Made by a program: the position numbers and the translations under genes. This document shows, piece by piece, positions 1,791-50,292 of a stretch of 64,000 nt of DNA (position 1 is the stretch's first letter; each line of letters opens with the position of its first letter). Under the pieces are notes generated by a model that was given only the letters and a program-made list of their open reading frames with translations, ran no database searches and was not told where the DNA came from. Origin of the DNA: Trichoderma breve (lineage: Eukaryota > Ascomycota > Sordariomycetes > Hypocreales > Hypocreaceae); contig NC_079236.1 in NCBI RefSeq assembly GCF_028502605.1, positions 930,001-994,000 on the forward strand. Direction: 5' to 3'.

Positions 1791-4700
1791 TCACTTCCTC
1801 GGTGGGATGGTACCACTTGGCTTCCTCTGAGCCTTGTTCTGGGGTGAGGGGGTGCGGTTGGCCGATTGCTTAGGGGCAAAGGGAATGGTTCCGCTGCTGC
1901 CATACTGGAAAAGTGCGCTGCTCTTCTTCTTAAGGAGGCCAGGCATGACCATTGGGTTGCCAGCCGGGAGTGTCGGGGGCATCCACTTCAGCGGCTCCTG
2001 AGGAGCAACTGAGACCGGGGGTGGCCCTTCAGGTTGGTACTGGTAAAAATCGGCCGTCTCATCGACTGCTTTCGTCGAGCGAGGGGAGCTCACGTTTGGA
2101 ACAGCCTGTCTCGACTCGGGAGAAACAGTTCGTGGCGTGAAATGTTCCAAATTGGGCGTTGATAGGCTGCTCTCAGAGGCGGTCGATAGCGCCGGCATGG
2201 TGCCATCTGGGGATGCGGCATTGATTGTGGGCCTTGAGCTGTTGGGCGTCTTGAGGCCGCTAGACTCTACGGATCTGTTGGTGCTGGCAGATGACGTGCG
2301 CAGCTCTGACTTGGCGACGGCAGCGGCGGCTGCGGCTGCGGCTTGTTCGGCTTCGAGGCGAGCCTTTTCCCGTGCCTCCTTTTGTGATTGGGTGATCAAG
2401 TTGATTTTGATCTTCTTGATGCCCTTGGTGATCTTATCCATGTCGTCAATAGTAGCGTCCAGCCTTGCACCTGCAGTTGCTGTAGTTGTTTCTGCAGGAC
2501 TTTCCCTTCCGGCTTCATGCATTGGTGACCTGAGGGCCGGCTCGCCATGAGCCGTGGTCGGCCTTGACCTTCTAACAGTGATTCTTCCGGTAGAACCGGA
2601 GCTCTGCGCTTGGTTGCCTGCCATTGAGATAGGCCTCCCGGCGATGGGGCCCGCAGATGTTGAAGGGCGAAGCGGTAACTCCTCGTTGATCGTAGCGGCA
2701 CGAGAAATGCTGCGCTGTTGCGTGGGAGCAACGGACGACGTGCTAAGCCGACGGTTATTCCCCTTGGGAGGCAAGCCAATAAGAGGCTGCGGTGTCTGGC
2801 CGCGAGCAGTTGCCTGATAGCCCATGTTAATCATTGTTTGATGTAAAAGAGGGTAAGGAGGGGGTTGTAAACTGCATGCTCACCTTTTCTGCCGCAATTG
2901 CTGGAGTACCTACAGTTCGTCTCCGGTCCCTTGTCTGCCGAGCACTGTTCTCCTCTTGAATGGGATCAATAGCCCTTGGCTTACGATCACGAAGCGACAT
3001 TCTTGATGTTGACCGTTCGAGATCCGGCGTGGCAGTGGATTGCCTACTTTGCCGCGCACGAGCTGCCTCTGGATTCAAGTCGTCGGCCGTGTAGCTGTCG
3101 GTTTGGCGATCCTGTGGGATGAGGAGCTTTGAGAGTTCGTTGGCAGCGACCGTCCACGGAACCTCAGGTGGCGAGGGAGATGGAGATCGGCTAGAAGTGG
3201 TAGACCTGTTGACCAGCGTCGACATGCTTCGTCGCATTTTGAGGGGATCCACGGCCCTTGCCGTAGAAGCTTGGGTCGGTGTACAATAGGTTGGAGGAGT
3301 AACCATACGCGGCTTCTTTGGCGTAACAACAGGAAGTCCTACTGTGGCCTCCAATTTCTCAAGTTCATCAGCCGACCACCACGAAGAATCGTAAGGGTTT
3401 ATGGAAGATAACGCTTGTCCAAAGTACTCGTCATCGTCGTTGTAGACACTTTGCCCGAAAGAAAGACGGCCCTGACGAGGCACGTTCTGCTTCCCAACAA
3501 GACCGCTCAGGTGGCTGAGAATGCCCGAGGTCAAAGCCCTATTGCTATAGCCACCCTCCAAGACACTGACGATGCGACCTTCGACAAAGAGGCCCTCCTC
3601 AGCAGCAAGCTGAACAATATCTTGTGTGAGCCGCGCGTAGAACTCTGTGGGCACATTGACCTTGTGACGCTGCATGCCAGCACTCTCCCATTCACTGGCG
3701 TCAAAGCCAGCAGACAGAAAGATGACGGCCCGCGGTTTAGCGCCTGCGTCTTGTAGCTTCTCTGCCTGCGCTTTAAGATAGCTGCGGGCCTTGTCGAGAA
3801 GTATTGTGTACTTGGTCTCATAAAGGTCCCAGAAATCTTCAACTGTCTTCCACGGCTGGAGATGGGCGTTCCAGACGTTTTGACCGTGGGCATTCTCGAT
3901 GCAAATACTGGCTTTCATAATCTTGTCATCATCGCCGTTTTCGCAAGGATATGAGTTGATGTCGTGCAAGCTGAAGTAACCAATAGATGTCCTCTTCCAG
4001 GCGGCATGGCTCTTGGTGGCAGCCATTGACCGAGAGTTGTGCGCCCAAGCAATGGCCTGAGAGCCATCTCCGTGGTGCAAGTCAAAGTCAATGATGGCGG
4101 CATGAGTCAGTTCGTGGTTCAGAATGCCATGCATAATTCCAACATGGACATTGTTGACCCAGCAGAAGCCAGACGGAAGGTTGGCAGAGCAATGGTGCCC
4201 AGGAGGCCGAACAGCAACAAATGCACGACGCGGCCCAGCCGAGAAGACGGCATCCACACCCTCACACACAGCACCCAGGGCACCCTCAATAGCATCTAGT
4301 GACTCGCTACAAAGGTACAAGTCGCCTTCATGAAGCTTCTCCGCCGTTGCAGTGCTGGCAGGTCTTTGCAGCTCCTTTCCTCCACGAGCCAAGACCGCCT
4401 CTGCAGACTCACACATATTCTTCAACTCTTCCATCCACTTAGTGCCATGCACGTTGGTGACGGCGGGGGACAGCAGCGGCAGCCTCCGGTCCGTCTTGTG
4501 GATGCGAAAGGGGATGCTGGGCAGCATGTGAACATTGCCCTTTGGCAGGATGGGCAGCGCACCATCGCTATGACGTTCACCAAGACGCACATAAGCTGCG
4601 GCCACGCCCAGAATGCCAGCCTTGATTCGCTCAGGCCGCTCCACAATGTTGCTGAGGGCACTCTTGGGGGTGCGCGGGCGCGCAAAGCGGTGGCCGTAGA

Positions 4701-5217
4701 CGGCATCGTTGAGCACAACAACTGTCTCGGTGTAGAGCGTGGACACGGGCCCGTGATGGGCCTCGAGCTCTTCCTTGAAGTGGCCACTCGCCACGGAGCT
4801 GGGCGTGACTGGCGGCCGCCACTCAGGCTCGGGAGCTCCAAACGACGCCCTCAAGCCCGGTGAAACAACCTGCCCCAGGCTGGAGCGCCTGGATAAAGAC
4901 CGCGAAGGGCCGACGCCGTTTGCCGAGTGCAGGGAGTTCATCGAGGCTTTGCGGACGAGGGTGGGGGTTGCGGCTCGCGACTCTCTGCCTGAGGGACTGA
5001 GAGAGGGAGTGAGGGCAGACGAAGAAGGGGAGGCATGGCGAGAGAGATTTAAAGGCGTGAGCGGCGTCGAGGGAGAGGGCAATGGCGATAATCCGGGGGA
5101 TCGCGGGCCACGCTGGCCGAGTGACAGCTGGCTGAGTGACTGCGATAGGCCTGCGTCTTTGTCCCTGGAGTTTGTTGCTGCACGCCGTGGCGGCTCTGTA
5201 TTGGGCGGAGACGCCAT
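1791..5217 (-). CDS. HOS3: Hos3-type histone deacetylase with long disordered tails
   Basis: Zinc-dependent lysine deacetylase of the fungal Hos3 branch. Exon 1 runs 5217-2884 and exon 2 runs 2813-1791 (phase-0 intron, donor GTGAGC, branch GATTAAC, acceptor TATCAG), giving 1118 aa. The catalytic domain spans roughly residues 160-565. RPPGHH is near 336, the zinc-binding DFDLHHGDG near 377, SAGFDASEW near 501 and the GGYS loop near 553, so the active-site residues appear intact. The first ~150 residues are Ser/Pro-rich. The last ~550 are low complexity, with an Ala-rich helix (AAAAAAAAVA) and many Ser/Thr-Pro sites, consistent with disorder and phosphorylation. Yeast Hos3 is about 700 aa, so the extensions are the main difference. 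Likely acts on chromatin; the tails may direct localisation (inference). Confidence 0.92.
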
Positions 5218-8200
5218 TTGGGCGTCTTATAAGACCGGTTTAGTCGGTGGGTTGCAGCGAGGCGACATGCGTTAGCAGAAGGAAAGACGCCAGGAACACG
5301 CCGGAAGAAGCCTGTGAGTATGTGCCAAGTTGGTGTGGGTGGAGAGTGAGCGTATGTATTGTATTATGTTGCGTTGAGAAATGCAGGTTTGCGATGCTGC
5401 TTCAGTTCAGTTGGCAGCTGGCGATGTACGGAGCGATTGCTTCAATTAACGGCTGCCTGATCGATCACTCGATTTCCCTGGTTTTGGTGATGGCTGCAAG
5501 TATTTTTGTTGTTGTTTGGGTCAAGGTTGGCACGCGGCGGCGGCCAGTGGCTCGGGGCGTTTAATGACATGGTCGGGCATGTAATTTCAATTGTCGCCAT
5601 CGTCATAGCCGCTTCGCTTCCCCTAATTCCAGTCCCAAATTCGCGTCCCATCTTGTCTCGCCCCGATCACGTGCCGGTGCGAATCTCATCCAATCTCATT
5701 CATATCACATCCATCCATCAAATAAGATAGGGGGCTGGCAATCAATTGCTTCACGTCACCATCATCGGGCCTCGTCAGGTCGGGCACCACAGCATTGACG
5801 CTGCGCCGGCACAGCTTCGCACGCGCATCTCGCCGATTGTCTGGTGTTTTTCCAGACAAGTAAGGGGTGTTTTTCTGCATCCGAAACGGCAGGTCTCGCT
5901 GCAGTGGAGCAGAGCGTCTCCCTACAGGTACATGCATTTGCGCCTGCTTACAGTCGGGATATCCATGATACACTACGGAGTACATGCAGCGAGGCATGCA
6001 GGCCACGATTGAGGCCAAACAAGACCCTAGACTTCTGGAGGGGGTGGATGCCGCATGTCATGACATCAGCCAAAACCGCCAAATCGGCCACTCAAACGCC
6101 ACCGGACACCAACTTCGTATACTGTACTGTACTGTAATCCATCGTCTGCCGCTGGGGGCGACATGCAGCGGTGGACCTCCAGGCAGGAATACATTCTTTG
6201 AGGGCGTACGTGGCCGAACCACAGCAGAGGCCTTGGATTTGGCAGCGCTGCGGTTTGCAGTCATTCGTCAGCGCTGCCTCCAGCTATAACCGACGAGGTC
6301 CGGTTTGAGCAGCATCACAAGCAAGTGTGCTAGTAGGTGCATAAAACCAGGAACTGCCGACTCCGATTAACGGCTGCAAGCGAAAAGGTGGAATGACTGC
6401 TACAGTAGTGCTGCCGCTGCTCTGCTAGCACAATCGGCTAACAGAACAAGGACCGGGAGCCCATATCCGACGACATGATTATCAGGTATAGATACCATCG
6501 AGAGTTACTGTTAGTCCTCGTAATAGCAGTAGCTTTGAATGGAGTCTGGCGGCCCGAATGTGCAGATGGCATCAGTTACAAATTACACAGCGGGCTCCAT
6601 CTCATTTGAGAGAGTAAAATATTCTCTCATGTGTAAATTTCCGGCAATGTTGCCGTCGTGACTAAAAATACTTGACAGGTACTCCCGTTGTCCGTGCTTT
6701 CGTTGGAAGTGCAAGTAAACGCACCAAGCATAAAGGGGCGACTTTATTAGCGGTCCCCGCTCTACTTCTTTTTTAAGGTACATCTGGGGTAGCGCCAGTC
6801 CCTCGATCTCAAGATGCCTGTTTGTCTGTGCAGTGGAAGGACAGAAGCTCAGACGAAAGAAAAAGCGCCCAGGTTTGTTACATATGTAGGCCGGCTTCCA
6901 CACAGCTTGCCAGACCTTGCAGACGCAAGAGATTAACTCCAATCTCGAGGTAGGTTCATGTTCATGTAAGTCATTCTGTCTTGCTGGATGCATTTGTTTG
7001 TACACATCAAGTAAAGTGCACTTTGTAGGGTAAGTCGATGCTCCGATTCGAGCGATTGAGGCCAATTTCTGGCTGCCCAGGGCTCCATAGACCCGAAAGT
7101 CCGCTTATCGCGCTGGGAACTCGCGCGCAAATAAAGAGCAGAGCATGTGATGGTGTTTTCATGAATTGATGCACAACGACTGGAGGAATTGATCAAGGTA
7201 GCGTAACAAAAAAGAAAGAAAGAAAAAGAAAAGAAAAAAACCTCTCAATTGTGGATAGTCTCCAGGCAGAAACATGCGCAGCAAATCTACGGCATTCATT
7301 GTTGGGCATCGTCTGCTGTCTCAAACAGCACGACAGACAACCAGGCTTGAGTCTCAACTCAGCTCAGCTGCCTGAACATCACACCAGGACAATGCACGCA
7401 TCGTACTCGTATGAGGTCGACTAACACAGCCATCAGATCAGCCCTATTTTCCCGCTTCCTTCTTATCTGCTCTTCATCCTCATTCCATCCCGTCCCAACT
7501 CATCGCCACCGCACCGGCGCTCAATAGCGTCTCATGCATGTGCTCACAACGCATCTCGTCCTTGGCTGCTTTTGTGGCACTAGCCGTCAAGGCCTGACTA
7601 GCCCAAAGCTCGCCCAGTTCAGGGCACATCCCGCAACTCAATCGCCGCCTACGAACAAGGCTTGTGTTTCCATCTTCTGTCTTCCATCTTCCTTCTTCCC
7701 ACAGCCTTCACCAAGTCTGAATTGCTACTCCAGCATCGCCTCTATTCCATCTCCACGATAACCAAACAGTCTTTTCTCATACTCAATACGAGTACTTGTC
7801 ACACCTCCCAACAAATTGAACAGAAATCCTTCCTCTCCAACCCCCTCCGAGCCGTGCCGCGAGCTAGCCAAGCTTTTTTCCCTGGCTACTGATTCAGCCG
7901 CACGGAAATCCGCCTCACCATTGGCCGTGTAACTGCGGCGACAGAATCAAGAGCGCAGAAGCAATGCCATTCCCCCTCTACTTTGTGCTTTCCGCCTCGC
8001 TTAGACTGCATGAGGATCCCAGCTCTGCGCTTGGCCTTGGCCCTCTAGACTCGTCCCCGTGATGTCGGTAGCTCAGCTTTTATTGACCTTGGGAGCCGCT
8101 AGAAGCTCGTCGTTGAAAAAAATGGCGTGTCTCCCATGTACGAGTAGCTGTAGGAGCTTGGGGGCTTAAAACTCAAGAAGCTCGCCTCCTCGCCGCCTTT

Positions 8201-20420: not shown

Positions 20421-22477
20421 TGGTACTAGAGCAAATTACTTTTTTTTCTTTAGCATGCCTGGCCGGGGAGGGCTTTTTTGAAGAAGCGGAGTGAACAAAT
20501 TAAAAAAAGAAAAAAAATTATTGGGAGGGGAAAGGGGGGCATCCGTGATGCAAAATTAATCTCATATCAACGCCCGGTCCTGACATCCAATTCTTTTTGC
20601 GTGCCAGATTCCGTGTGTTGTTTTATGAAGAGCGCAATGCTTGTTTGGCGGTTTGTTATTTTTTTTTATATCGTATGCCATACAGGTGTTGTTGCCTGCT
20701 TTTTGTACGTTTATGCATCTGTTCATATAATCTTCCACTTAGATGTTTGATTTGCATTATTCTTTGCTAGAAGAGTGATTTTTGCTTGTGACGTTTGAAG
20801 CGGATACAATGTCTGTACGTGACGCTTGACCAGTCGGCTTTTTGGATGGTGATCGATGTATCTCGAGTCTTTGCTGAGGGTTGTTGGAATAGAGCCTCAA
20901 TCTTCCTACTTTGGTGAGATAGATAGATGGCTCTGGTGCTTGGTGATTGTGAGGTGCTATGACTTCGTACTGGGGGCAGAAGAAGTGAGAAAAAAGAGAA
21001 GCATCTTAATACTGCGGCAGTTTGTCCTATCTGGGCCTCCAGAGACCAAAACTTTGATAATTGTTTTTGAGGCGTTGCTACATGTAGTCTTCACTTTGGC
21101 GTCGCTCAAGGCGTCGTTGCGCAGGCGCATAAATTTGTGCCTCTTGCCAAATGCGTAGGCTTCACAGCAATTTTAAACCAGCCTGGGGACCTGAAAAGGC
21201 CAAATCCACTCTTCGATAATACATCTAATAGTTGTGAGGCGCAGGGAGACTGGCTATTCTTCACAGCAATTTTAACCTCTCCCGAGAGTTCGGGAGCTTG
21301 ACCGACTTGCACTCTAATTGGATGTCTTATAAAAATGACATCTCGCTCTTTACAGCAACTTTAGCCTCTCCTGAGACTTGGCAGCTTGGTTAATTTTTGT
21401 ACTTTAATTGAGTGTCTTAAGGTATCGCGTTGCAAGGGGATGAGAGAGGTACAAAAGGAGTTTTTCTCTGACCATTTCTACTAGGTACTACTTGATATAT
21501 AACCTAGCAGATACAGGGAGGATTGAAATCTCAAAGAACCAATCTGTTGTATGTACCTACATGCCTTTGAACGGATTCTCTGGGCGTGTGGTTAAATTGC
21601 CAGCCTTTCGTTATCGTTATGACGCCGGATCTCTTTTTTATTGTCCGGGAGCTTAGGGGAAATCAACGTCTCGGCTTTTAGGAACTGAAAAACCCGAGTT
21701 CTGGTGAGCGCAAAGAGGCCGGGATGGAAATTTACGGTGTGGCGTCTAATATGTCTTGGATTCCGTGTCTCACTCGAGTTTGGTTGATCAATGGGAGTGA
21801 TTCAGTTATGCGGTGTGACCTGTTATTATGCATTCTGCTGCTATGGATTTGCGCCTTTGAGAGACATGGCCAATACTTTGACTTGATCCTATGATTGTTT
21901 CATCTACAATAACATCTGGGCTGTGAAGCATTTAGGCTACACCCAGATGCGTAGTATATACGAACAATACAACAGTAGATGGATTACTACTAGTATGGAA
22001 ACGTCCACTTACTCGTCTCTGCCGAATCGGGGACTAGTAAAGGTCGCACGGCAGATCAGATTGGCTCGGCTCGGCTCGGCTTACGAGAAATGCAGGGCAG
22101 CCGCTGCTACATATCCTCCCTTGCTAGCGGGTCAATGACTTACAAGGCAGCTTTACTCAGTCGTCATATCGAGCAGACGCGATTGACTAAGCTGGCAGAT
22201 GCCTGACGAGGCGAGGGCGGCTGGATCATGCAGGTCGTTGATATCGGAGCAAATGTTGAGGATGGCCCTGTGACCAGGGGAGAGGAACGTCCTCGAATCT
22301 CGAGTCTCTTGGACCTTCTCCCCTGCTCCTCTTTCTTCTTCTCTTCCTCAAGCTATCTTCTCTGTCTACATTACGTCTGGTACGGTATACTGAACTGCTT
22401 GGCTCATTCCTTTTCATCATCTTTGCTCAATCCCCTTTCCTCTCTCTTTTAGCGCATTATCTTTTACATCCTCCAAA
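20421..22477. other. 2-kb intergenic region between BBC1 and the dehydrogenase
   Basis: No credible coding sequence. The first ~300 bases are the AT-rich 3' region of the BBC1-like gene. A cluster of three repeat cores lies at 21161-21368 (listed separately). The last ~250 bases are pyrimidine-rich and lead into the dehydrogenase start. Confidence 0.6.
21161..21368 (-). repeat. Three minus-strand copies of the GAGGTTAAAATTGCTGTGAA repeat
   Basis: Cores at 21161-21180, 21260-21279 and 21349-21368, spaced 99 and 89 bp. Read on the minus strand they are the same motif as the large array at 40.35-47.08 kb. The first two are linked by an open frame (33 codons) reading GEVKIAVK and FKIAVK. A 7-bp inverted repeat CTCCCGA/TCGGGAG (21279-21296) abuts the middle core. 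Confidence 0.8.
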
Positions 22478-39992: not shown

Positions 39993-41778
39993 TGATGTTT
40001 TGGCTTTTGGATGGTTCTGAATGGCGTAAGGGGGGTTGAGCGATTGGATTGTAATTTTACGATTTATGAAGTATATACAACTTTTTTTTTTGTACTTGCT
40101 CAGTACTACATGCGACTGGTGTATGTGAATTGTAGTGATCAGTGTCAAGTTTGTTTACTTGATCTGGGAGGCGTTTCGGGCTTGAGAGACTCCCAAACAA
40201 AGAATAATGAGTGGCTTTTTGTCATTACACTCAAGTAACAAAAGGTAGATTATAGTGAAGAATGTTGTGAAATGCACTTGTTGGATGGGATACAAGGCTG
40301 GGTATACGGATTACGATAGGGAATTATCGTGATGCAACATTCTGGTTATCCTGTAAAAATATGGAATCTTTTAAGGCCCTGGGGGGGATTAACATTGCTG
40401 TGAAAGTGACTCAAAAGAGGGTGTGGACCTTTAAGTCCTACTGTTACTACATATGTCGCCATCCTACAAGAAAATGGAGTCTCTGTCTTGGCCTCGGGGG
40501 AGGTTAAAAATGCTGTGAAAGACCCAAGAGTCAGAAGCCGGCTTATGGTTCATGATCTTCCTGCTACTATTACTGGTCACTGTGTAAGAAAATGAAATCT
40601 CTTCAGGGCCCGAGGGAGGTTAAAGTTGCTGTGAATGTGTTGAGGGTGTGCATACCGCATGCGTCGTCATCATGCAAGAAAATGGAGTCTCTCTTAACTT
40701 CCAGAGAGGTTAAAGTCGCTGTGAAGGACTTCTGATGCATATGCTGAGACTTGCATGTGTACTTTGTCTCAAGTTCCTTTTGCTACTACTCGTCATTGTT
40801 TAAGAAAATGGAGTCTCTTCAGACCACAAGAGAGGTTAAAATGGCAGTGGGATTGGATTCGGCCCCGCACATCCATCTCTTTCACCCCCACGATGCCCAG
40901 ACTGAGCCAAGAGATTGAATCGACTTGGCAGTCTAGCCACCTTTAGTTACCAACTTCAAAGATTCAACGTCTAATGTGTATTGAGACATTTGTGCTCGTT
41001 GAACCGTGATGATATAGATGTCGAGGTCAACCGTTCTCCCGCCACAGGCAAGCTGAATTCGACTTATTAGTCCCAGGCGGACTATTTTATAACAACCTTT
41101 GTCGACGAGAAAAACATTCTAAGCATGTCAACGTTTTGATACTGGACCAAGGGCTCTTCTTCCTTCTTCTAATACATTATCCAAGATGACAGTCAGTAAT
41201 ACTCCAACGTCTATATATTATATTCCTATCTAGATTTGAGCCAGCAAAACTTCTTGGCATCCACACAAGTCGTCCTTCAACATCTGTGAAGATAGGCCAA
41301 GGCACTCAAGTGATGGAGATTGGTTCCTCTTTGTGGAAACCGACTTTTTTGTGCCGCCTGGTAGGAGAATATACTTTCCCTGTGCTAGAAGAGAAAAGAG
41401 AGGCTCTATCTCAGAGAGAAAAGGTGAGTGCCTCTTTTGCTCCTCCGCCATCACACCAAGGCTTTTGCTATACTAGGCCTCTACGACGTTGAGCCTCCAG
41501 TATACCGTTCTTTACTACATTGTATTAATCACTTGCAGCATTGGTCATGTAAAAATATGCTTGACAAAGTTTTATTTCGTTAAATGCTTCGATACTATTT
41601 ACAACCCTCCTCTCGGAGTTGATTGAGAATTCGAATCAAGCGGAATGTGTCTTGGACTCGACCATGTTCATTTTTTTATAGACATCATCCAAGAAAATCA
41701 TCGTGTTTGCGCATAAATGATGGTCTTCGACTTTACATCATTGTGCCCACAACCATACTCTTCCTCCCAAACATACAT
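39993..41778. other. Gene-poor spacer holding the left repeat cluster
   Basis: After ~350 bases of AT-rich 3' sequence, the regular repeat cluster occupies 40351-40850 (separate entry). From 40850 to 41778 I see no gene and no clear copies. Confidence 0.6.
40351..40850 (+). repeat. Left cluster of the AAAATGGAGTCT / GAGGTTAAA repeat family
   Basis: Five units with cores at 40387-40406, 40500-40519, 40616-40635, 40706-40725 and 40832-40850, spaced 90-126 bp. Each has an upstream box near AAGAAAATGGAGTCTCT (40468, 40586, 40676, 40802; degenerate at 40351). In units 3-5 the box ATG lies exactly 24 nt before the core GAG and in its frame; units 3 and 4 share one open frame (40592-40735). Between box and core is a C/G-rich stretch such as CCTCGGGGG. 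Confidence 0.85.
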
Positions 41779-42729
41779 TTACTCAACCTCCTCGATGGAG
41801 CGGTTCTCAACGCCAGCAGCGTTGCGTCGCTTCTCCTGCTTGGCCTTCCAGGCACTCGGGGGAGCAGGCAGGGGAATACCGTGGGTAGCGGGTCCGAGTC
41901 TTGGTGATCCGGAGCTGTCAATGCCCCAGGTCTGGGTGATGGTCTTGCTGTTGGAAGCGGGCAGCTTGCCGTAGACAGTGTTGGCAGTCTCACCGGTACC
42001 GTCCTGGAACGCGGTGTAGCTGGGCTCGGTGGTGAGAACAGTCAGGGGCTGGTTGGCAGTGTAGACGATGGTACCCGAGCCGGAGGTGAAGCGGCCGTCG
42101 GCAGCGTTGTAATCACCGACAATGTTGAGGGTGAGGGCGGAGATGGGAGACTCGTATGCGGAAGTGATTCTCCGGTTGGTGCCGTAGATGGGAAGGCTGG
42201 TCAAGGTGACGGAGGTAGAAACGGCCTGGCCACCGGGAGGAGTGTAGACGTAAGTAATGCCAGTGATGACATTGCTGGAGCTGAAGGTGGGAATGATGTT
42301 GATGACGGCACCGGCGGGGATCTGGTTAGCCTTGGGCAGAGTCGTAATGGTGGACTCGCTGTTGATGACTTGTTGATAAGTGTTGGCGGGAACGGTGCCA
42401 GACCAGTTGTCAATGATACCGTAGAGAGTTCGGTCACCGGGCTGGGAGAAGACTACATATTGCTGCCAGTTGGGGGTGGTGCTGGGGGCGCCGGGAAGCT
42501 CCTCTGTCAACATATACGAGTTAGTATTTTGCTATACAAGCAAAAACAATAAGGCTGGGAGTTGCTTACGGGCATAACCGTTGAGCTGGAAGCCAAAGCC
42601 GTTTGAGGCAGAGATGAGAGGCTCGGCAAAGGTGATCTCAACGTTGAGGCCAGTAATGGCATTGCCTCCATCCGCAAGGAAGTAGTTGAAGTTGCTGCCA
42701 AGGCCCTGGGGGGGTGGTGCCACAGACAT
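41779..42729 (-). CDS. Unrecognised beta-rich protein inside the repeat tract
   Basis: I do not recognise this family. Exons 42729-42570 and 42503-41779 (donor GTAAGC, branch TACTAAC, acceptor GACAG) give 294 aa. There is no signal peptide and no transmembrane segment. The N-terminus is MSVAPPPQGLGSNFNYFLADGG. The sequence is rich in Thr, Ser, Ile and Val with alternating polar/hydrophobic residues, suggesting a beta-sandwich; stretches such as WQQYVVFSQPGDRTLYGIIDNW and TGITYVYTPPGG support that. The C-terminal ~45 residues are Pro/Lys/Glu-rich. Codon use is clearly biased to C-ending codons and the frame is intact, so it appears to be an expressed gene, the only one in the 7.5-kb repeat tract. 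A lectin-like fold is possible but not supported by any motif I can name. Confidence 0.75.
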
Positions 42730-42918
42730 TGTGAAGTAGTGATGAAGCTTCTTCTTTATGATAGGACAGACTTGTCAAACTGACTCTTTGCTCAGACTGG
42801 TTCGAGTGAGCTGTTGCGAGATGGTGCTGAATCAAAAGCCTTTGAATCAATGTCCAGAGCGCACCTTTTATGTGTTTCTCAACATCCGCCTCATCCTCAC
42901 AACTACCTTGGAATCATC

Positions 42919-43542
42919 AAGTCTAAGTCCAGCGACTTGCCTATATCGGAAGTCTTATCGCAGCTGCATCGTGATCTAAACAACAAACTTCAAAAGTACG
43001 AGTACTACGTTCCTAATCGAGAGCCCAGATACGAGACTCGACATGTCTACTGATGCTTTTTCAAAATTCCTTCAGCGCACATAGTTTCCGTATGTCTGAT
43101 CGGAAAACGCCCGTACACAATTGCAGAGTTTTGATGAGCTTCTGTTTTCGGAAAACGTCCGTAGATGTTAAGGAACTCTTGAAAAAGCCCCTCCCGTTCC
43201 CCGGCCCCCGTACGTAGCGCTCGGCTCAAAAAACCTCCGCCCATTGACCTTGGATTGGTGTTGATCGGATAGCAGATGCCGTAGCGCCGGAGGCACGAGA
43301 TATCACCTTCGACTTAGACTTCGTGAGGGGGCGTATTCCGCAGTGCGCTAGCATTAAACATCCCTTGTGTGGTTAGCATGATCGGTATATTCAGGCTGTG
43401 ACATATTATCTCAACAGCTGCAGGCAGTATGGCGTCTTTCTCCAACTATAAAAGTGCCGGGGTTAGTTGGAGGCTAGGAGGCTATGGTGAAGCTAATACT
43501 AAGTCTAAGTGCAGCGAGTTGCCTATTTGGGAAGTTCTTATC
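42919..43542. repeat. Pair of 42-bp direct repeats ~580 bp apart
   Basis: Copies at 42919-42960 and 43501-43542 begin AAGTCTAAGT and end CTTATC. They differ at four bases and one indel. A ten-base fragment AAGTCTAAGT recurs at 44141-44150. They could be ends or internal debris of a mobile element; no transposase is visible. Confidence 0.6.
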
Positions 43543-44495
43543 ACAAGCGGGCCACTCATGAAGAGGAGAGGAATGTGAAGGATGTGGCGATGTCGCGATC
43601 CTTTCTCATGCTCACGATATCATGTGGTTGGATTGCAGCAGCAGCAGCTCAGATCACTTGCGGGGTTGTTGAGTTAATGCAGTTACAATTACAGTACTCG
43701 TATATCATCTGTACACGCAATCTTGACAACCCTCTGCTGTGTGGCTGTCCGCGGACGCACGTACGAATGTCAATACGACTGCCAAGACGGTTGTCTAAAC
43801 GGCTGTCGGTGCGCGGCACATGGCTCCCGAAAATACCATCGGCGTTTTCTTGGCTGCTTTTTCTTGGCAGCTAGCCGGAAGGCGGCCACCTCCGTCAATG
43901 CGAGTAGTCTCAGCATGGGGCTAAAGATTGATAACATCATCAACGGGAGTTGGCAACGAAGAGTCATCTGCAGTCCCTCATGATGATCATTTGAAACGGT
44001 GTTGAAGGCTAATGGAATCTTAAATTCCAATCTTTGCAGATCTCTATACTCTATATTGTGTTTTCACCAGTAATTTCTACTGATTTTCAAGAGATCGTCT
44101 TCTGTCCCTTCGGCTTGCCTGTCTTCTGTCCCCCACAAGCAAGTCTAAGTGGGGAGTTTTCCGTAGAGAGGGGCCCTCGATTCCGTCAATCGATCGAGCT
44201 GTTTGTCTATTTTTGGCCCCCGTCTTAGCATCTTGATTGGCGAGTCTTGGCTAACCTAGCAGATCGCGCCATGATCTGACCGAGTGGCGGATGCACATGT
44301 GGCTTAATAGATGAACCTGTCTATCTTGCTGTTCCATGTCCACTTACACCAAGACCCTGTCGTAAGAACCTTGATCACAGCACATATCACATGCTTTAAA
44401 GCACGAATAACATTCCGCAGATGGCATACTCGTAACACGACTGACACCCTCCCACTGCCATTCCTATTCTGGAAGGACACGGCCATCTCCCCTGC

Positions 44496-47078
44496 AAGAA
44501 AACGGAGTCTCGACGGAGGAGGCCTCGATAGAGATAGAGGTTCAAATTGTTGTGTAAGGCCTGAGTCACGGTGAGGCAAGTTCTGTCAGCAGGCAATCTA
44601 GAAACGATCGGCACATAACGCCTGACCGTTATATAAGTCATTAGATACAACGCTACGACATTTACAACTAGCGTCAAGTGTTACACCGAGGGTAGCCATA
44701 ACAGCAGGCCTTAGAATGGATAGTGATAAGAAGAGATGGAAACAATGCAGCAATAGCAAGCTGTGACAAATACATATTAAACGGGATTTATCATATTACC
44801 CATCTCAAGGCGTGCTGATTGCCCATGATGACTCCCTTGTCAGATTCGTCAAGCCAGGTTTTGGGCGGAGTTGAAGATGTTGTGAAGTAGGCCCCCCCCC
44901 GGGAGCTAGCCTCGGCTGCCTCCGGAAGAGGTTAAAACTGCTGTGAAGAATACTCAAGTTTGCATACCCACCCTGCTCATTTGTGCCTGACATTGTGGTA
45001 GGCCGAGTATCACTGACATGAGAGAACCGCGGCACTGAGTTACGCGTCGCGTCACACCATCTAGCAGCAATTTTTACAATTGAAGGCGTAATAAACCATG
45101 GGCTGACTTGAAAAGGGGAATGGCTATTATGGAAGTTGGAAAACGCATAGTACTAAGCAAACATCCACATAACTGACTTAGGATGGTATTTGTTTGGGGG
45201 AGTAGTTATCGAGCATCCCAACTTGGGATCTGACACTCTGGTGATTGCATGCACTTGCAGTTTGAGCACTGTAATAAGATACAATCAAGGTGCTTTTTGA
45301 TACGAGGACCTTGTTCTTCAAATATTTATTACCATCACTAATCTCTCACTATACAAGGTATTAGTGAGCAGGTAAGTGGCCGCGCATGTTGAGCTTTGCG
45401 ATTTGGGATTTGGGATACGAGATACTGGATGGTTGACTTGGGGTGCTAGAAAGTCACTCTTTTGCAAAACGTGATTGGTGTACCAATTGTGAAGTTGACT
45501 ATTCGCTCATGAAGATCTTTGTGAAATCATGAGCTGATTACAGGGTAATTGACCGTTGCTGTCATCTTCAAGGGGCATAGGGTAGAATTGATGGCTAGTA
45601 ATGCTGTGAAAGCAGTTATGCGAGTAATCATGACGAGACATTACTGTTCATGTTGCAAATAATAGAGCCCAACTTAATGTTCCAGGCATCAAAGGAAATT
45701 TAAATTGCTGTGGAATTGGCTTCATTGGAGGCCTCAGTGGATGCCTTCAGATGTATCGTGAATTCAACATCAATGCCCCTTAGCATTCTTAAACTACCTA
45801 TGCAAAGACGGAGGGGATGCATAAGATATACGTGGATGTTTGAACGCTCTTCCGTTTACCATGCGATTTTAAGGGAGGCAGCGACTATAATCGACTACTT
45901 AGTAAACCATCACAGTGAAATATGTATGACTCGTTATCCTGCTAGAAAGAGGTCAAGTCGACTCAATATCACCAGCTCTCAGAAGTGATGAGAAATCCTG
46001 ACACATAAGAGCAATAATAGTGTTCATTTCCCTTCGGTTTTGATCTAGATTATTACTTAATATGGGGCTGCGCCTTCATGTATTGTTGCAAACAATCCTC
46101 CAGCGAGCAGCCATGACGACAGGACATCTCGCAAGAATACAGAACTCAACTCCATTGAACCACTTGGTGCTAAAAGTGCTGTAAAGAGTACTGGCGCGCT
46201 CAGGTTGGGCTCCCTTGCTGCCCAAAATATTCCGAATTGAGTCTTCTCCGCTCCTCCATCATATGGCCTTGAGGGAGGTTAAAAATGCTGTGAAGATTCG
46301 TCGAAGGATCCTGCACCAAGCTCAAGGACACCAGAGACGCGTAGACACTTAGCTCCAATCGCATACGGGCAAGGTCAATCAACTCCGCCCAAGGCGTGAG
46401 GCAGAATCGACTTGGCACCAATCACTAGCATAACCTTGACGTGTAATATTTCTCTGTGGGAACTTGCACACCATTGCAGCAGGTCTAAATAGCATCAATT
46501 TTTACGTAGTGGAGGAGTAGCAAAATAGCAAATGCTAAGATACGTAGTTGGACTTGAAGAAGCTGGAAGCAGGAACGATAATAGAAGATGCTGAGCATCC
46601 TTCAAGAATATGGAACCCAGCTCGGTTCCATCTCTCACGGCCTCGAGGACGCTAAAAATACTGTAAAGGAAACTTTTATTGCCAAAAATCCGAAAAGTAT
46701 TGTGTCCTCATTTGAGCCTCCTCCTGTCCTCTATGATATGGAGTTGGGGAGAGTTAAAATTGCCGTGAAGGATGCCGAAAGGGATGCCTCGGATACTTAC
46801 TTCCATGGCCTCGAGGTTGGTTAAAAATGCTGTGAAGAGCCCAAGCTGACTGAAATCCCAAAAGTTCTTCCCCGATGGAGTCTCTTTGCGATCCTCCAGG
46901 ATTTATGTATGGCCTTGGGGGGATTAAAATTGCTGTGAAAAACCTCTGAATGGCTGGGCTTACACCAGAGCTCAGCCACGCATTGAAAGAGAAATATTAC
47001 TGGCCCATCTTGCTGTGCCAAGCCAAGTCAATTTAGCTCTCCAAGAATGGATGGGAGAGAGTTAAAAATGCTGTGAAG
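44496..47078 (+). repeat. Right cluster of GAGGTTAAAAATGCTGTGAA repeats
   Basis: About twelve plus-strand cores: 44537-44557, 44868-44886, 44928-44947, ~45590-45610, 45693-45715, 46166-46186, 46275-46294, 46648-46668, 46751-46770, 46815-46837, 46920-46939 and 47057-47078. The best copies read GGTTAAAAATGCTGTGAAG. Spacing in the densest part is 64-137 bp. Upstream AATGGAGTCT-like boxes survive in only some units (44496, 46874). A C/G-rich stretch such as CCTCGAGG or CCTTGAGG usually precedes the core. Confidence 0.82.
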
Positions 47079-47461: not shown

Positions 47462-50292
47462 TCAGCTCTTTCTAGCCATCTTGATCGAGTCAGCGCCCGT
47501 CTCAACGACTCTGAACCCATCCGCATCACCATCTCCCCTGGCAGCCCTCGCAAATGCCTCCTCACTCCTATCACAAATAGTCTCTAGATCTTGATCGCTC
47601 AAGATATCGTCTCCCCCCGATGCTTCGTACACTTCGCCATCTTTGAGCAGCAAAGCTCGTAATGTGTCGGGATCTAAATCCTCTTCCTTTTCGTTCAGCT
47701 TTTGGCCCATCGTCTTGAACCCACCTTTGCGGATGACAAGCTTTTCCAGTCGTCGCTTGGCGTCGGCAGAAAGCAATAGGGATTCCTCCACCGTTCCCTT
47801 CGTGGCGAGACGATAAACTAGCACGGGGCGAGTTTGGCCAATACGATGCGCGCGGTCCTGAGCCTGCAGGTCCTGTTGGGGGTTAAAGTCACTGTCAAAG
47901 AGAATGACAGTGTCGGCAGAGGCTAGATTGATTCCCTGACCACCTGCACGAGTGGATAACAAAAAGATCTTGTATTCTGGGTCCTCGTTGAAGAGTTTGA
48001 TGCTCTCACGTCTGTCCGCTTGAGCAATGCTGCCATCAATGCGGCAGACTTTCCAGCCGCGTAGTTCTCTGCAATAATCCTCTAAAATGTCGAGTTGTGT
48101 AGTAAATTGAGAAAATATGAGCACCTTGTGGTCATCGATGAAGAGATGCTTCAACAATCGATCGAGAAGAAGCATCTTTCCTGACGCTGTGACGATAGTC
48201 TCATCTACCGGAATATCGGTAGCAACAGCCCACGGATTGTAAAAATTGTGCGGAGTATTGCAAACCAGCCGGAGCTGGGCCAGGGGGTTACCCAACTTCT
48301 TGCGTGAAATCTGCTTTTCTGCGGACATATTAGCATCTAAATGATCTAAACGTAGAGGGAAATGAGAGAATGAGAGAAAACATACTGGCCATATCTAGAG
48401 TCTGCGCTCGTTCTAGTTCTTCAGCAGACATTGGCTCCGAATCCTTATCGTCATCATCCTCGTCAGCCATTTCGTTGGCCAGCTTGGCCTCAAATTCATC
48501 ATCTGACATCTTCTCCTCGTCAGAATCAGCTTCCTTGTATGAACGAGCTTGGCGACGGCTGCGAACGCTCAGCGGAGTCGACTGTCGACTAGATTTCGCG
48601 CTTTTAGTTTCTGATACAACAGAGGTTGGAGGACTCTTTCGCTTCGACTTTTGGTTTGTAGGCGTTAAGAGGGGATCAGGCTTGGCATTCTTAGGTGGCC
48701 GCCCCGGACCCCGTTTACCCATCATGAGGCTAAACGCATTCGGAGCTGGCGATTTTGACCGTTCTTCGACCTTTGTGCCTCTAGCTTTTTGTCGAACGGG
48801 TAGAGAAGCTCCCTTGTCGTCCTTTTCCGCCTTTGTTGTCGCTCTTGTTCGGGAAGAAGATCGAGTAGAAGCCCGGGATGCCGTCTTGCTGCGAATTATC
48901 TCCACAGCTTTATCTTCGAGGTATGATCGAGTGTCCATATTTTTGTTAGAAATGACATTGTAGAGATCTGTCTGCTCTTTTGTCATCGGAGCAAACAGAA
49001 CATACTCTCGCTTTTTGGGCAGATAAGCGGCGACGTCTTGCTTGATACGGCGGAGGAGGAGGGGCTGCAAGATGAGATGGATTTTCTTGACCAAATCTTG
49101 CTTCATTTGGTCTTCAATGAACTGCTGTGTTCCCTTTTCATCTTCCAGCTCCGAAAAGTCGAACCAGGATTCAAAGGCCTCCCAGTCAGTAAAGATATTG
49201 GGCAACAAAAAGTGAAGTAAGGACCAAAGCTCCTTGAGATTGTTTTGAAGCGGCGTGCCGGTGATGAGAAGGCGTGTGGCAGATGAGAACTGTCGCAGTT
49301 GCTGGAATAATTTGGCGTCGGCATTCTTCATACGGTGACCTTCGTCCTGTTTGAGAGTGCATTAGTAAGCGATTCAAGAACTGAAACAGAGGGCAAGATG
49401 CTTACGATGATGATGAACTCCCATTTGATTCGGGATAGGTTATGGTGGTCATTGATCACCATCTCGTAAGATGTGCAAACGACGGGAAACTTTTTGGTGG
49501 GGCGACCAGACTTGAGATGGCTCATAATCTTCTTGTGAAAGATCTCTTCTCGTTGGGCCTTGTTGCCATGATACATCTCAATCGGGATAGATGGTACCCA
49601 TTTGTGGAACTCGTCAATCCAATTTGACAGCGTGCTGAGCGGCGCCACGATGAGATGTGGTCCAAGATACTGCTCTTGTTCTCGTAAAAGCGCAATCAAT
49701 GAGATGGTTTGAATCGTCTTGCCTATGAGAGGTTAGAACGCTGTTGAAAGAAAAGGATGAAAAGAGAAAAGCTTGACTAACCCAGACCCATCTCGTCAGC
49801 CAGGATGCCGCTCATACCCTGTGAGCAAATCTCATACATCCAGGTAAGTCCTTCCAGCTGGTACTCGCGCATCGTACCACCAACCATGCACTTTGGCTGT
49901 GTAGCCATCTGCAGGTTGTGCTCACCAAGCTTCTTGCCATCTAGACTGCTGCCAACACGACCAAGTACTTGTGTCTTTTTGGTAAGAATGTCGCTAAAGG
50001 CGGCGCTCTTCTGTAGCAACTCGTCCAGCTCACGCGCCTTAGCTTCTCGCTCTGCTTTGGTCTCGGCCTTTTTCTTTCTTCGTTGTTTAAGAAGATTCGC
50101 GCGTCGCTTTTCCTCAACTGCGGTGTTTGCGAGTCGTGCTTTAGCCTCTTCTTTGATGATGTCTTCATCTACAAGGCCAACGTCTTCTTGATCATCGAAG
50201 GGATCAGTCGGTGGAGTGCTAGGTGCAGTGGTTGGCGGTGTCCGTGAATTCGACATGATTGATTCAACCTCTGAAGTCGAGGTATTCGCCAT
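47462..50292 (-). CDS. IRC5: LSH/HELLS/Irc5-type SNF2 chromatin remodeller
   Basis: DNA-dependent ATPase that moves nucleosomes; relatives are mammalian HELLS, plant DDM1, yeast Irc5 and Neurospora MUS-30, with roles in heterochromatin and genome stability. Exons 50292-49782, 49722-49406, 49346-48386 and 48318-47462 give 881 aa. Residues ~55-110 are a charged coiled coil. The Walker A DEMGLGKT ends near 173, split by intron 1. The Walker B box is DEGH (277-280), split from its hydrophobic strand by intron 2. ITGTPLQNN follows. The second lobe contains [29 protein letters not shown] and [10 protein letters not shown]. Between the lobes is a ~170-residue insert with an AT-hook-like RGPGRPPK (487-494) and an acidic patch. 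The start shares a divergent promoter with the ARC1-type gene. Confidence 0.93.

Follow-up and report, generated by a model that had tools for sequence, protein, structure and literature searches.

What keeps a short DNA motif nearly constant at many intergenic places while the sequence around its copies drifts to randomness? The question is raised by a 64,000-nt stretch of the Trichoderma breve genome (contig NC_079236.1, positions 930,001 to 994,000, forward strand; hereafter the window), in which an earlier note had described, between 40351 and 47078, a large array of about 17 copies of a 20-nt core, offering decayed tandem coding repeats, a binding-site array or a transcribed repeat as explanations. 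The core proves to belong to a 37-nt motif that recurs at some thirty intergenic places and has outlasted the spacers between its copies. The motif is best read as a putative site for a sequence-specific DNA-binding protein of Trichoderma, a reading to which we give about an even chance of being right; among the three options of the earlier note the binding-site array is the one that fits best, and it is supported in part.

A 37-nt Motif Recurs across the Genome

The genome scanned was the 38.5-Mb assembly of nine contigs, with motif matches on contigs C1 to C8. The 20-nt core has 72 matches with up to two mismatches (38 forward, 34 reverse) versus none for the reversed control, and the 16-mer TTAAAAATGCTGTGAA has 81 with at most one mismatch versus one for the control. 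In the whole window, 13 matches to the 20-nt core with up to three mismatches compare with a mean of 0.00 in 100 shuffles. Matches elsewhere are few: prokaryote genomes hold three exact 20-mers, about the chance level as estimated for 257 billion bases, and viral contigs hold none.

Alignment of 85 copies on the 20-mer gave a conserved unit of 37 nt, TCTCAAGGCCTYGGGNGAGGTTAAAAATGCTGTGAAR, with sharp edges. Positions from about −12 to +20 carry much information and those from −16 to −13 little, with background values beyond, and the information is thus confined to −16 to +20. The 20-nt core of the earlier note is real and genome-wide, but the unit that is conserved is longer. The right half, TTAAAAATGCTGTGAA, is near-invariant across copies and the left half, AAGGCCTYGGGN (AAGGCCTYGGG), is looser. 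The motif has two subtypes, with GAG or GG at positions 0–1; of the 27 sources, 21 contain the first and 15 the second.

A 37-nt weight matrix, applied with a threshold of 12 bits to the window and to 26 stretches fetched around genome matches, found 110 sites of at least 12 bits versus none in reversed sequence. With one match in a helicase gene left out, the other 109 form 30 groups of 1 to 10 sites. The omitted match (window 47863–47899, 20 bits) lies in an SNF2-type helicase frame, over the conserved residues FDSDFNPQQ, and we regard it as a chance match and as a warning of such matches in coding DNA; it is left out of the counts after the matrix scan, although it is counted in the open-frame overlap and second-box upstream tests below. 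Sites below 28 bits were left out of the alignment and identity profile, and sites below 35 bits out of the folding. Outside the fetched set lie 20-mer matches at C5:3003 kb, C6:3525 kb and C7:874, 930 and 1586 kb, and one-mismatch 16-mers at C1:1113 kb, C2:3062 kb and C7:654 kb. A lone site at C1:2523434, in a stretch fetched later, scores 38.4 bits and looks like a true member of the family.

Arrays and Their Spread over the Chromosomes

The copies in the window are the following.

40369..40852, + strand: array 1, five sites by weight-matrix scan, starting at 40369 (40.8 bits), 40484 (48.4), 40600 (41.1), 40690 (31.5) and 40816 (19.7)
44537..44556, + strand: weak copy of the 20-nt core upstream of array 2, three mismatches, below 12 bits with the 37-nt matrix
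44851..47078, + strand: array 2, ten sites of at least 12 bits by weight-matrix scan (14.6 to 49.1 bits), starting at 44851, 44912, 45679, 46150, 46259, 46632, 46734, 46801, 46904 and 47042
45595..45610, + strand: weak copy of the 16-nt core, three mismatches, possibly chance, as shuffles give about one match per window at that looseness
21160..21384, − strand: third array, three sites by core search and matrix, at 21160 (31.5 bits), 21259 (43.7) and 21348 (34.4)

The 15 sites of at least 12 bits and the weak copies at 44537 and 45595 account for the approximately 17 cores that had been counted between 40351 and 47078, and all 17 do lie on the + strand. They do not make up the single gene-poor array that had been described, however, since the repeat cores stand in two arrays, with about 3.7 kb without cores between them that holds a gene. 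Tandem Repeats Finder reported no array at 40–47 kb. Over all loci, 59 of the 72 same-strand steps below 1 kb measure 61–171 bp (median 106 for steps below 300), and the sites are directional as well as repeated, with 72 of 79 neighbouring pairs less than 1 kb apart in the same orientation and seven inverted. Helical phasing of the sites was rejected (R 0.11 at 10.5 bp); among 35 periods tried, 12.0 bp came out best, with an R of 0.28 versus an uncorrected 5% level of 0.23.

When the loci were compared with the cores masked, homology was found only inside arrays or between neighbouring arrays, and for distant loci the motif was the one thing detected in common. The genome-wide family with shared core and flanks that the earlier note had envisaged is thus borne out for the core, but not for the flanks of distant loci. 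Inverted sister arrays, 3–27 kb apart, are present on C3 (4047/4074 kb), C4 (940/964 kb) and C2 (6464/6467 kb), and these have spacer or flank DNA in common beyond the motif; on C1, arrays on opposite strands form two pairs at a distance of about 8 kb, in which spacer homology was not detected. The groups are also clustered, as 13 of the 30 have a neighbour within 100 kb versus a random mean of 4.1 (p 0.0025), in a place list compiled from the 20-mer and 16-mer matches that, as for the transposase and HNH_2 distances below, left out C1:1113 and C2:3062 kb.

The Core Has Outlasted Its Spacers

Among sites of at least 28 bits, right halves have an identity of 0.845 when compared inside arrays (117 pairs) and of 0.828 when compared across loci (3464 pairs); for spacers the values are 0.26–0.33 and 0.25, respectively. 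The core is therefore kept far better than the intervening DNA, as the earlier note had observed, and the likeness over the whole unit that is typical of satellites is absent, although a few pairs do align over about 90 bp. The 16-mer occurs near sites 43, 32, 22, 14 and 8 times with zero, one, two, three and four mismatches, respectively, the last versus an expected 4.5. Copies drifting along with their spacers would instead pile up at many mismatches, and the falling counts indicate that most copies are not drifting in this way.

The sites also avoid long open frames. Only 1 of the 110 lies in an open frame of at least 200 aa, although such frames cover 40% of the sequence, and 4 of 110 lie in frames of at least 150 aa, which cover 50%. 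Where a group is flanked on both sides by open frames of at least 200 aa (23 groups), the arrangement is convergent in 10, tandem in 9 and divergent in 4. The facing ends of flanking frames are 3′ in 31 of 50 cases and 5′ in 19, which is not the concentration at 5′ ends of a promoter-type element. The neighbouring genes are diverse (SRP54, purine synthesis, HET, terpene synthase, ubiquitin hydrolase and others among 50 open frames scanned), and no gene family is common to the loci beyond two cross-locus matches among 1483 open frames.

Putative Binding Sites and Their Possible Role

Binding sites are the best reading of a motif that is kept while its surroundings are randomized, that lies outside genes and that shows no concentration at promoters. 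The protein involved would read long sites, probably by several zinc fingers or Myb repeats, with the right half TTAAAAATGCTGTGAA as its main contact and the left half as a second one. Units of about 100 bp would have been duplicated in tandem at the various intergenic places and some arrays copied in inverted form to a second place 3–27 kb away, after which the site would have been preserved as the spacers became random by drift. As 3′ ends of open frames adjoin the sites somewhat more often than 5′ ends do, a role in the organization of chromosomes or replication forks, as polar barrier, boundary or anchor, appears likelier than promoter switching. In a more specific form, which we offer tentatively and consider doubtful, the arrays would act as scattered platforms on which an undescribed long-site protein shapes Trichoderma chromosomes through polar fork barriers, boundaries or pairing anchors; as part of that same doubtful proposal, they might correspond, in a fungus, to RTS1-like or CTCF-like sites and extend over all large chromosomes.

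These comparisons are by analogy. One paper (PMC5368702) describes RTS1/Rtf1 at the fission yeast mating-type locus, the Ter sites of Reb1 and the Sal boxes of TTF-I as polar, repeated sites of Myb/SANT proteins, and places Reb1 sites also outside the ribosomal DNA (rDNA). The Trichoderma arrays resemble all three in being made of repeated, directional sites, but they differ in occurring at some thirty places and in a motif whose sequence is unlike the sites compared, and membership of any of these groups is not claimed. The string AGGTTAAAAATGC resembles what we take to be the fission-yeast Reb1 site, a site that was not found in that form in the literature searched. CTCF-type motifs are long and asymmetric and combine a strong core with a weaker second part, as does the Trichoderma motif with its strong and weak halves, although the latter stands in tandem arrays and its binder is putative. 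In alpha satellite, the CENP-B box is a short protein-binding box kept in repeat units, and the Trichoderma arrays likewise have tandem units of about 100 bp with a kept box. Unlike CENP-B-type satellites, they are not reported as an array by Tandem Repeats Finder at 40–47 kb, have spacers at saturation and carry a core that turns up again at intergenic loci without relation to one another.

Several observations weigh against a binding site under constraint. Windows with five, six and seven mismatches are in moderate excess near arrays (51 versus 28, 187 versus 139 and 701 versus 565), and this excess may include decayed copies. In a recent duplicate pair at locus L021, conservation of the motif does not exceed that of the spacer. 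Constraint is judged from copies within one genome that were selected by the very matrix that scores them; likewise, the high scores of single-site groups come from loci that had been picked for a good match. Correlated positions define the two subtypes at many loci, which copying could also explain, and the bias toward 3′ ends is modest and rests on open frames rather than gene models.

Other Explanations

It is conceivable, though unlikely, that the motif is a very short selfish repeat. The unit of copying would then be the core of about 37 nt, whether through insertion, template switching or gene conversion, and arrays would grow afterwards by tandem duplication. As only the core would be copied, flanks would never be common between loci, and this is what is seen at distant loci, which have the motif alone in common; the occurrence of the two subtypes at 21 and 15 loci and the clustering of the groups fit as well. 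In contrast, the sister arrays on C3, C4 and C2 have common spacer or flank DNA, which means that larger pieces were copied there, and we know of no insertion signature or enzyme for a unit so short. A less probable alternative is that the motifs were once transposase-binding repeats close to the termini of large DNA transposons that are now dead, and that either chance or a transposase still present has preserved them. The inverted sister arrays that flank 3–27 kb on C2, C3 and C4 would suit such an origin, as would the inverted repeats that surround a gene with an HNH_2 domain at locus L024, but no gene family is common to the arrays (the two cross matches aside, and with the interiors of the C3 and C4 pairs partly fetched). 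Moreover, dead relics are expected to decay as the spacers did, and the genome matches to DDE_1 (0 of 2) and hAT (0 of 12) are all far from arrays, with none within 400 kb of one versus 37% of random places.

About as improbable as transposon relics is an unstructured transcribed repeat, in which each array would be a non-coding RNA with cores that serve as sites for an RNA-binding protein or as a source of small RNAs. The predominance of one orientation among neighbouring pairs is what transcription would lead one to expect, the seven inverted pairs are not, and a hairpin in the left half is possible, as 63–90% of 86 sites pair at its six steps, above slid registers. However, the RNAalifold consensus predicts no pair, the 25 position pairs with the strongest covariation include none of the six in the hairpin, folding energy is like that of random stretches on both strands (66 sites of at least 35 bits), and no Rfam family was found in the window. 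A tRNA search of the window was equally without a match, neither covarying helices nor low folding energy was found, and structure tests thus lend no support to the transcribed repeat listed by the earlier note. Its remaining option, decayed tandem coding repeats, here reading KALGEVKNAVK, is disfavoured to the point of being very improbable. Read in that frame, 80 of 86 sites contain no stop, and synonymous changes make up 40% of the differences from the consensus versus 22% expected, an excess that does speak for coding. Yet the spacings are spread evenly over the three frames (25/24/23) rather than being multiples of three, and the fourfold positions 5, 14 and 17 are identical in 81, 84 and 82 of 85 copies while residue-changing positions vary freely, and the sites avoid long open frames.

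Novelty and Meaning

Searches of the literature with sequence strings and keywords, mostly without subscription papers, gave no description of the motif or arrays among the matches listed; the three matches to sequence strings were all African swine fever virus papers with one 13-nt string each, taken as coincidence. We therefore call the repeat undescribed provisionally. A long intergenic motif that is near-constant at some thirty places in randomized surroundings points to a constraint on Trichoderma chromosomes, and the motif is specific enough for direct capture of its putative protein. Should it organize replication or chromatin, filamentous fungi would gain a defined site of the boundary or barrier type; a selfish nature would make it an unusually short repeat of that kind.

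Second Box and Neighbouring Features

The earlier note had also described a second box preceding the better units, and this is present at the locus, although it is not a feature of the family.

40468, 40586, 40676 and 40802 (span 40468..40818), also 44496, + strand: second box AAGAAAATGGAGTCTCT, three exact copies and two with two mismatches

Genome-wide, AAGAAAATGGAGTCTCT is near the control level (17 versus 13), and the best match to it upstream of 91 non-window sites resembles that at random places; on both grounds it was rejected as a family feature and is considered local to the window locus. A partial copy, AAAATGGAGTCTCTT, is found 88 bp upstream of the lone core C1:2523434 (locus L038 846–950, C1:2523346–2523450), and this is the sole hint of two distant loci sharing more than the motif.

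At L024 (3842–7708, C2:6463842–6467708), two arrays flank the HNH_2 gene, with inverted TAGTA-rich repeats between arrays and gene at 4785–4839 and 6762–6816 and an outer inverted pair at 4141–4191 and 7880–7930. This locus suggested HNH_2 as a candidate, which was rejected, as 1 of 7 genome matches to HNH_2 lies within 10 kb of an array. Three of the 7 lie within 60 kb and 5 within 150 kb, versus 7.9% and 17.6% of random places, a proximity that, like the distance of the hAT matches, was noticed after the fact; it may reflect a shared regional preference, and no conclusion is built on it. At L029 (3486–3822), internal direct repeats, 70–75% identical, occur in a 622-aa open frame that adjoins the C4:964 kb array and has no match in Pfam.

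The space between arrays 1 and 2 is occupied by a gene that is not in the repeat.

41779..42513, − strand: 244-aa open frame from the open-frame list, hypothetical protein

Its product is 97% identical to the hypothetical protein N5P37_009963 of T. harzianum, a Pfam search with it was without a match, and by our reading the gene has another exon upstream. The mitochondrial RNA polymerase encoded in the window is 99% identical to that of Trichoderma sp. SZMC 28012, 90% to that of T. barbatum and 89% to that of T. virens, and the protein identities suggest a host in the harzianum group. Also between the arrays is a direct repeat of 45 bp (42919–42962 and 43501–43545, 87% identical), which is unrelated to the motif and has two copies in the window.

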